This document shows, in pieces, positions 24,759 through 27,774 of a DNA stretch of 53,978 bases; positions within the stretch are counted from its first letter, which is position 1, and every line of letters begins with the position of its first letter. The notes beneath the pieces were generated by a model. It did not search any database and had not been told where the DNA came from. It saw nothing but the letters and a program-made list of their open reading frames with translations. Origin of the DNA: Verrucomicrobiota bacterium (lineage in GTDB: Bacteria > Verrucomicrobiota > Verrucomicrobiia > Limisphaerales > SIBE01); assembly GCA_027623095.1 (NCBI GenBank), contig JAQBVM010000004.1, forward strand, positions 1-53,978, written 5' to 3'. The position numbers and the translations under genes are program-made.

Positions 24759-25451
24759 GTGGAACTGGTAAGCGGTTTGCGGAAAGAGTTTTCTATCGGG
24801 GATTACTTGCAAATGAAAGACGAGGCGGGAGAGGACTTCGGTCAAATTCTGAACGGTTCGGGATCACACTCTGAGGATCTCGGAGCGGCGCAATCCCGCT
24901 CCCGCAATTCGTCAGAGTCGCTTGGTGAATCGCTTTTAAAGGTGGATATCGCTCCAACCGTGTTGCGGACTCTTCCGTCCGATTTCGTAAAACGACATCG
25001 CATCTTGCCCATTCGGATCCGAAACGGAACCCTTCATGTTGCAACTTCCGATCCCGGAAATCAGAGGGTGATCGACGACATCCGGCTCTTGACTGGCTTG
25101 GAAGTGGAAGAATCCATGGTGCCGGCTTCGGGACTACTCGAGAGAATCGCGGAGTGTTATCGAGTTACGGTGGAGCAGATGCTTGAGAACCTCGACCCGG
25201 AGCACGGTCCGGCGGCGGATGGCGGGAATTTGCATGATATCGAGGTGATGGCCAACGAACCCACGGTCATCAACCTGGTCAATGTGATTATCTCGACGGC
25301 ATTGAAAGAGCGGGCGAGCGATATTCATTTGGTGCCCTTCGAGCAGTCTCTCCAATTGCGATACCGAATTGACGGACTGCTGCAGGAAAAACCGCCTCCT
25401 CCCAAGAATCTTCATGCCGCGCTTGTCTCTAGTGTAGTGTCTTTCAAATAA
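24759..25451 (+). pseudogene. gspE: Type II secretion ATPase GspE, N-terminal part; interrupted by inserted element
   Basis: LRTLPSDFVKRHRILPIRIRNGTLHVATSDPGN, NLVNVIISTALKERASDIHLVPFEQSLQLRYRIDGLLQE; frame ends in VSFK* inside the insertion. Confidence 0.9.
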
Positions 25452-25538
25452 CTATACATACGCCGAGGCACAATGTGGCCTAAAAAGGCCGAAAAGCGAA
25501 GATTTCGAATGTATAGACATTTCGGAGACACTACACTA
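25430..25538. mobile_element. MITE-like non-autonomous element inserted in gspE with TA duplication in a CTAG target
   Basis: ctaGTGTAGTGTCT...AGACACTACACtag; subterminal ctatacat/atgtatag and internal ggcct-aaaa-aggcc palindromes; net insertion 107 bp; removal restores the GspE frame exactly. Confidence 0.92.
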
Positions 25539-25549
25539 GAGTCAAGATT

Positions 25550-26533
25550 ATGGCGGACATGAATATCGCCGAACGGTATCTGCCGCAAGACGGGCATATC
25601 CAGATTCATCATCGGGGTGTGAGAGTCGATATCCGTGTCGGAACAATGCCGACCATCTACGGAGAGAGCATGGTTTTGCGGCTCTTGGAGAAGAACTCGA
25701 AATTGCTGACGCCTCGGGAACTTGGATTGGACGAGGAACGATCGTTGCTTTTGGGCAAACTCGTGGAGAAACCACACGGTCTTTTTTTGGCGACGGGGCC
25801 CACCGGCAGCGGGAAAACCACGACCCTCTATTCGATTCTCAGCGGGATCTACGCGCCCGAGAAGAAAATCCTTACGATCGAAGATCCGGTCGAATACGAA
25901 CTCGCCGGTGTCGCTCAGATTCCGGTGCGTCCAAGCAGGGGGTTCACGTTTGCCAGCGGGCTGCGCGCTATCCTTCGGCAAGATCCTGACGTTGTCATGG
26001 TGGGGGAGATCAGAGACTCGGAGACAGCCGAGATCGCGATCCGAGCGGCTCTGACCGGGCATCAAGTATTCAGCACACTTCACACCAATGATTCAGCGGG
26101 AGCGGTGACGCGGCTGCTCGACATGGGCGTGGAGGCATTCCTGATTTCGTCCTCACTCGAGGGAGTTCTCGCGCAGCGGCTTGTTCGGGGGATATGCGCG
26201 GAATGCAAGTCGGAGAGTCCTGTGGCAGCCTCTGTTCAAGCCAAACTGAAGACGCTTGGAGGCGATCGGATCGACGGAAGATTTTTCAAAGGCAAGGGGT
26301 GCGAAGCTTGTCGTGGAACGGGCTACCGCGGTCGAGTCGGAATCTTCGAGTTGCTTTCGATTGATCAGGAGCTGCGGGAGTTGATCCTGCAAAGGCGGTC
26401 CAGTGCTGAAATCAAGACAGCGGCTCAGAAAAACATGATCACGATCCGGCAGGACGCGATTCGGAAAGCGGCGGAAGGAATTACTTCGTTGGAAGAAGTG
26501 GCCAGAGTAGCCGCCGGAGATTCAGAGGAATGA
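25550..26533 (+). pseudogene. gspE: GspE, C-terminal ATPase part (separate ORF after insertion; may or may not be translated)
   Basis: MADMNIAERYLPQDGHIQI; Walker A GPTGSGKTTTLYS; LRQDPDVVMVGEIRDSETAEIAIRAALTGHQVFSTLHTNDSAGA; four-cysteine C..C/C..C region (CAECKS..CEACRGTGY). Confidence 0.9.
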
Positions 26534-27774
26534 CCTCCTTTCGTTACCAGGCAGTTGAGTCAACCGGCGCATCCGTTCAAGGTGTGATCGACGCTGAGAA
26601 CCGAAAACAGGCACTTCAGCTTCTGGGGCAGCGCGGTCTTTTCGCATCGAATTTGCAAGCGTGCTTGAAGGGTGAGGAGAAGACTGCTCGAAGGCCGTCG
26701 TCGAATGGAGGCGTTTCACCGGGCTTTCGATGGGGTTCGCGCGTTCGCAGGAAAGAAATCACAGCTTTGACAGGAGAGCTGGCGGTCCTGTTGGAAGCGG
26801 CCATCCCGATACCCCAAGCATTGGACGGTTTGGGTGAGGAAGAGGAGAATGCGGCGCTGAAAGAGGTGTTGCGGAAGATTTCCGAATCGGTTCGAAAGGG
26901 CGCGTCCTTATCCGCCGCAATGGAGGAGCATCCTCAACTTTTCGACAAACTTTATGTGAGCATGGTGCGTGTCGGAGAGGAAGCCGGCGCCCTGCAAAAG
27001 GTCATGACGGATTTGGCCGGCTTGCTCGAACATGAGGACGAAGTGCGTAGTGAGGTCGTAGCGGCGGTTGCATACCCTGCGTTTGTAATGGTTTTCGGTG
27101 TGTTCACCGTTGGGATCCTTCTAACCGTGGTGCTCCCCCGGCTGTTCGGCATGCTGGAAGAGATGTTGGATATCCTTCCTCTGCCCACACTGATTCTTCT
27201 CAGAGTGAGCGGACTGCTGCACAGTTACTGGCCGGGATTGCTGATTGTTTTTGCGACGATTGTGGTCGGAGCACGATGGTTTTTCCGGAGGCCCGATGGA
27301 GTTGTGCTCTTGGACCGCTGCAAACTCAGTCTTCCGATATTGGGATCTGTGTTTCGCGCGGCGGCGCTCAGTCGATTTGCTCGGACTCTCGGAACGTTGG
27401 TGAAAAGTGGCGTCTCGCTTCTTCCAGCTCTGAAAATTGTTGAAAACACCATTGGAAATGTGGTTTTGGCGGGAATGATCGCTCAAGTTTCGGAGGAGAC
27501 TCGGGGAGGGGATTCGCTTGCGGCACCGCTTCGGAAATTGGGTGTGTTCCCGAAAACTGTCGTTCAGATGATTGGCGTGGGCGAGGAGACAGGGAGACTG
27601 GACGAAATGTTGCTGAAAGTGGCGAGTATTGAGGAACGTCAGATGCGCGCGCGAACCAAGGTGATGGTATCGTTGCTGGCTCCGGCGTTGATTCTGGTCG
27701 TGGGAGCTGTAGTGGGATTCATGGTAATCGCTCTGCTGCTTCCGATTTTTAAGATGAGCCAGGCGATTCATTAG
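26530..27774 (+). CDS. gspF: Type II secretion system inner membrane protein GspF
   Basis: FRYQAVESTGASVQGVIDAENRKQALQLLGQRGL; LTGELAVLLEAAIPIPQALDGL; MIGVGEETGRLDEMLLKVA. Confidence 0.95.
   Translation: MTSFRYQAVESTGASVQGVIDAENRKQALQLLGQRGLFASNLQACLKGEEKTARRPSSNGGVSPGFRWGSRVRRKEITALTGELAVLLEAAIPIPQALDGLGEEEENAALKEVLRKISESVRKGASLSAAMEEHPQLFDKLYVSMVRVGEEAGALQKVMTDLAGLLEHEDEVRSEVVAAVAYPAFVMVFGVFTVGILLTVVLPRLFGMLEEMLDILPLPTLILLRVSGLLHSYWPGLLIVFATIVVGARWFFRRPDGVVLLDRCKLSLPILGSVFRAAALSRFARTLGTLVKSGVSLLPALKIVENTIGNVVLAGMIAQVSEETRGGDSLAAPLRKLGVFPKTVVQMIGVGEETGRLDEMLLKVASIEERQMRARTKVMVSLLAPALILVVGAVVGFMVIALLLPIFKMSQAIH

Follow-up and report, generated by a model that had tools for sequence, protein, structure and literature searches.

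A probable IS630-type MITE, apparently recently active, interrupts gspE in an uncultured Verrucomicrobiota bacterium

The window analyzed here, a 53,978-nucleotide stretch of DNA, is contig C69 of a Verrucomicrobiota draft genome (G000; 7.4 Mb, 561 contigs, 93% complete) and carries a type II secretion cluster in which gspE is split in two. The 5′ part of gspE (positions 24759 to 25429, plus strand) encodes an MshEN domain and the start of the T2SSE domain (PF05157, and PF00437 positions 6 to 63). The 3′ part (25539 to 26533, plus strand), which contains an in-frame internal ATG at 25550, covers PF00437 positions 67 to 370 and is 78 to 80% identical to uninterrupted orthologs. The next gene of the cluster is gspF (26530 to 27774, plus strand; PF00482).

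The gspE parts are separated by positions 25430 to 25538, which read as TA, a 105-bp element, and TA. The two TA copies (25430 to 25431 and 25537 to 25538) represent a duplicated target within CTAG, and the insert, counting one of them, is 107 bp long. The left terminal inverted repeat (TIR; 25432 to 25459, plus strand) consists of a perfect outer part, GTGTAGTGTCT, and an inner part, AAATAACTATACAT, while the right TIR (25509 to 25536, minus strand) reads GTGTAGTGTCTCCGAAATGTCTATACAT on the minus strand. The ends GTGTAGTGTCT/AGACACTACAC form perfect 11-bp inverted repeats, as a sequence-only reading of this DNA had proposed together with the TA duplication in CTAG; with the flanking TA, the perfect stretch is 13 bp. 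That reading had also noted complementarity farther in, and an inner block, CTATACAT, present at both ends, does lengthen the inverted repeat to about 30 bp, with imperfect pairing at 25 of 30 positions including the TA (33 bp at 82% by BLAST). The central stretch (25460 to 25508) holds a small hairpin, GGCCT-AAAA-AGGCC, and no notable reading frame. As single-stranded DNA, the whole stretch folds much more strongly than shuffled sequences (z = -7.45, 0/200). The element is less than about 300 bp long, is noncoding, without any open reading frame of note, and has TIRs and eight identical copies, which are the features of a miniature inverted-repeat transposable element (MITE).

Translation of gspE runs into the insert as ...LVSSVVSFK and stops. 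Because this stop is reached within at most eight codons, the gsp cluster of the assembled strain contains a broken gspE. The orthologs in three relatives (G005, G006, and G012; 80, 79, and 78% identical over the 3′ part) are uninterrupted and lack the 107 bp, so that relatives, though not ones of the same species, bear out the expectation of empty sites. The GspE flanks align to the orthologs as far as residue 224 and again from residue 226, with a single Ser at the target between them, and deletion of the 107 bp in silico restores GspE as the earlier reading had claimed. These three relatives have no CTAG at the corresponding site. The genome retains four further, more distant homologs of the GspE ATPase (40 to 54% identity) and so still has members of this ATPase family. 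As to the element's coding frames, stop codons supplied by the end TAGTGTAG close two of the three frames at each end of the element, and one minus-strand frame runs open across all of it; the effect on a gene thus depends on frame and strand.

A whole-genome search of G000 identified eight copies of the element, 100% identical over 109 bp, in line with the mobile, MITE-like nature suggested from the sequence alone. All eight are flanked by C and G, that is, they lie in a CTAG target with the TA duplicated (C-TA...TA-G). CTAG accounts for only 39 of the 1,260 TA steps in the window (3.1%), and at this rarity its presence at 8/8 sites is not due to chance (probability about 8e-13). We characterized the insertion sites by Pfam domains and reading frames. 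Besides gspE, the element lies in the N-terminal methylation helix of an N_methyl pseudopilin gene, directly before the ANSLDAGA motif of a HATPase-domain gene, in a large repeat-rich reading frame, in the last codons of a HAD-type hydrolase gene, and at the stop codon of a cytochrome c gene. One copy is located ahead of a gene with Put_DNA-bind_N and CoA_binding domains (Rex-like), and one is apparently intergenic.

Of 385 class genomes searched, G000 alone contained the body of the element; one same-genus genome compared has no copy, the plasmid and phage collections gave no match, and no Rfam family matches the element. This restriction to G000 suggests that the insertion is recent and strain specific, and combined with the identity of the copies it points to a recent burst. 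Transposition thus appears to have been recent, and the element is probably best described as a recently active, strain-specific MITE.

The ends, in contrast to the body, are widely shared. Stretches of 29 to 34 bp match elements in genomes of the same family and the same order (the right TIR is 93% identical by BLAST to ends in G044), and further end matches occur in records named Pedosphaera, Verrucomicrobiia, Hydrogenophilales, Rhodocyclaceae, Alphaproteobacteria, and Acidobacteria. We collected 31 distinct ends, each preceded by C (31/31). They share two conserved blocks, positions 1 to 14 and 17 to 29, with positions 15 to 16 and 22 free and positions 4 to 6, 8 to 11, 17 to 18, 23 to 24, and 28 to 29 invariant or nearly so. 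Both blocks are kept at both ends of the window element. Complete insertion sequences (ISs) with the same two-block ends, each between C and G, were found twice, in other genomes. The first (L054, 1501 to 2712; 1,212 bp with both TA) encodes a 380-amino-acid transposase with HTH_23, HTH_32, and DDE_3 domains that scores 253 bits (cutoff, 100) against the NCBIfam IS630 model NF033545. The second, from Acidobacteria (L097, 599 to 1750; 1,152 bp), contains a frame of 373 codons with visible resemblance to the L054 transposase, the profile score being given for L054 alone. These shared ends support assignment of the element to the IS630/Tc1-mariner type, and the earlier guess of this family gains weight from the IS630-family transposase that full elements in other genomes encode between the same ends.

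ISs with these IS630 ends also leave their mark on other assemblies. The G044 sequence breaks off inside such an IS at no fewer than 15 places, most of them contig ends, and G007 does so at several; the IS seems to fragment these assemblies while itself missing from the bins. CAMAWP01 and CAMAUZ01 (G005 and G044) are large environmental metagenome-assembled genomes (MAGs) titled Akkermansia muciniphila that group with Pedosphaera-type genomes, and G005 bears the same genus label as the Baikal Pedosphaera MAG G007; the titles look wrong.

Within G000, five contig ends (C351, C190, C357, C165, and C127) carry TAGTGTAGTGTCTCTTAAATAACTAGACA, which is 90% like the MITE ends. Behind the common 29-bp repeat lies one inner sequence in two of these contigs and a second one in the other three, matching what the two ends of a collapsed longer IS would give. 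This pattern is what a longer IS of at least three copies leaves behind when the assembler does not resolve it. Its body was not found in the draft, and the L054 transposase as a query gave no match in G000. The sequence-only reading had looked to a full-length IS with the same TIRs; such elements exist in other genomes (L054 and L097), but the corresponding body is missing from this one. Since that body is absent from the assembly, the helper transposase is one that we infer and do not see, and the longer element at the contig ends would be the candidate. The single DDE_3 gene of G000 (C516) was rejected as helper, being without any of these ends. Two other contigs, C355 and C528, bear the 12-bp end only and were not counted as IS ends; C355 has neither the inner block nor a visible transposase frame, and its end may reflect chance or decay.

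From the shared ends, mobilization of the element in trans by an IS630 transposase would be the natural reading. Between the IS ends of G000 itself and the MITE ends there are about 3 mismatches in 29 positions, whereas the left TIR of the MITE matches that of the G007 element at 28/29 and its right TIR departs from one end of L097 at a single position of 29, so each MITE end is nearer to one of these ISs than to the genome's own. The true helper may therefore be another IS, and the partner of the MITE may have been a related IS, present or lost.

The element itself is clear but ordinary: it is a known kind of mobile DNA, an IS630-type MITE. Our account of it starts from what we take as established, namely the copies, their identity, the target, its duplication, the uninterrupted relatives, and the IS630 transposases between the same ends elsewhere. 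With high confidence, we regard the element as a nonautonomous MITE of the IS630/Tc1-mariner type that is moved in trans to CTAG by the transposase of a related IS. The MITE retains in its ends both TIR blocks of full IS630-type relatives, the outer block of 12 to 14 bp lying at the cleavage site and the inner block, AAATnnCTATACA, being probably bound by the transposase. A related IS would supply the transposase in trans, and the MITE would be cut out and pasted at the TA of a CTAG, duplicating the TA. In gspE, the insert terminates translation within eight codons.

A variant of this account, to which we give only a slight chance, has the mover as a transposase of another family that duplicates TA within CTAG, such as some groups of the IS5 family. 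TA duplication by itself does not determine the IS family, and the helper is not seen in G000; however, IS630-type transposases are carried by L054 and L097, the complete ISs that share the two-block ends, and the contig-end element of G000 shows the same blocks. Somewhat less probable still is that the element is a structural or regulatory palindrome (REP, BIME, or terminator) spread by recombination rather than a transposon. It is indeed short, noncoding, and strongly folding, with two copies that seem to lie between genes and one located at a stop codon, but the CTAG target with TA duplication at 8/8 sites, the several insertions within genes, the ends common to full IS630 elements, a central hairpin with no T-run after it, and the lack of an Rfam match all point the other way. 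The target duplication and the ISs with the same ends refute this reading in the main. Least credible of all is that the insert is tolerated in gspE through removal or skipping at the RNA or translation level, as in a hairpin-driven bypass, for although the hairpin would bring the two gspE flanks together and the downstream frame is open and well conserved, the element has stops in all three forward frames, breaks other genes as well, and is identical in and outside genes, so that nothing in it is tuned to gspE.

An IS630-type MITE has close counterparts in other bacteria. RUP of Streptococcus pneumoniae is a noncoding element of about 107 bp with TIRs matching an IS630-family IS and a TA target (PMC2229807). 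The window element is close in design to the pneumococcal RUP, sharing its size, IS630-type TIRs, TA target, near-identical copies, and lack of coding capacity (PMC2229807). RUP differs in TIR sequence and is present in more than 100 mostly intergenic copies, whereas the window element has eight, several of them in genes, and its helper body is not seen in the assembly. The Correia/NEMIS elements of Neisseria are MITEs of 107 to 155 bp with terminal TA and target duplication (PMC2229807); they resemble the window element in size class, TA at the ends, and target duplication but have other TIRs, and a CTAG preference is shown here for the window element. The autonomous IS630/Tc1-mariner elements IS630 and ISY100 duplicate TA, encode a DDE transposase, and have TIRs of about 24 to 30 bp, while the window element lacks a transposase and has a different TIR. 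The ISY100 transposase alone suffices for transposition, binding a 24-bp repeat and inserting at TA (PMC2170065), and CTAG is the preferred target of IS630 according to Tenzen and Ohtsubo (1991), as cited in PMC2170065.

We also compared the middle of the MITE, taken as 51 bp in the scripted comparison (25460 to 25508 in the feature annotation), with the IS bodies found, the genome's own IS body being lacking from the draft. These inner 51 bp matched no better than shuffled sequences (one of seven comparisons gave P = 0.035, not significant), so that the MITE does not seem to have arisen from the ISs tested by simple deletion. The core of a G005 MITE was likewise tried and gave no real match.

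That element of G005, a genome from the same family as G000, is a 275-bp MITE (L057, 1189 to 1463) with the same IS630 ends around a core of about 225 bp. In G002, a genome of the same family, the core has at least 40 scored matches and lies between a different repeat, GTGGTCC...AAATACGCTC, with a TNA target duplication in CTNAG at most sites. The repeat AGTGGTCC(A/G)TTTC(A/G)TAAATA occurs 201 times in G002 (6.7 Mb; control, 0), suggesting about 100 MITE copies, and at the G002 loci read (e.g., L171, L176, and L189 to L215) it leads into this core every time. Genomes from other families of the class carry the core inside yet other, unrelated inverted repeats, which are mostly identical at 20 to 22 of 22 positions. 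Core loci include L057 (1189 to 1463), L176 (1501 to 1726), L246 to L262, and those of G002. The core forms two hairpins, with halves alike in inverted orientation. Compensatory two-sided changes occur at 46 of 66 predicted pairs, and 92.8% of cells are paired, versus 39 to 44% with the partner slid; the scarcity of G-T pairs suggests that the constraint, or the copying, may act on DNA rather than RNA. A one-hairpin model was found in 20 of 291 genomes across Verrucomicrobiota, and no Rfam family matches the core. The window's genome has one copy of the class-wide core hairpin (C326, 16660 to 16778; L255 and L266), without recognizable terminal repeats, and by sequence comparison the core is absent from the window's MITE.

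The sequence of about 225 bp resembles the core of a MITE whose ends can be swapped. It is conceivable, though we consider it unlikely, that TIRs are exchangeable modules in this phylum and that the window element represents ends captured around foreign DNA instead of a shrunken IS. For the window element, what is shown of this is that its ends are shared and its middle is unrelated; elsewhere, the idea is based on the occurrence of the core between many unrelated TIR pairs, both TA and TNA duplicating.

For annotators, gspE is split here because of a transposon and not a sequencing error. More broadly, this case documents an IS630-type MITE, apparently recently active, from an uncultured lineage of Verrucomicrobiota; its CTAG target is very strict, and several of just eight copies knock out genes. 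The conserved core with its many TIRs could offer a starting point for asking how MITEs switch their helper transposase.
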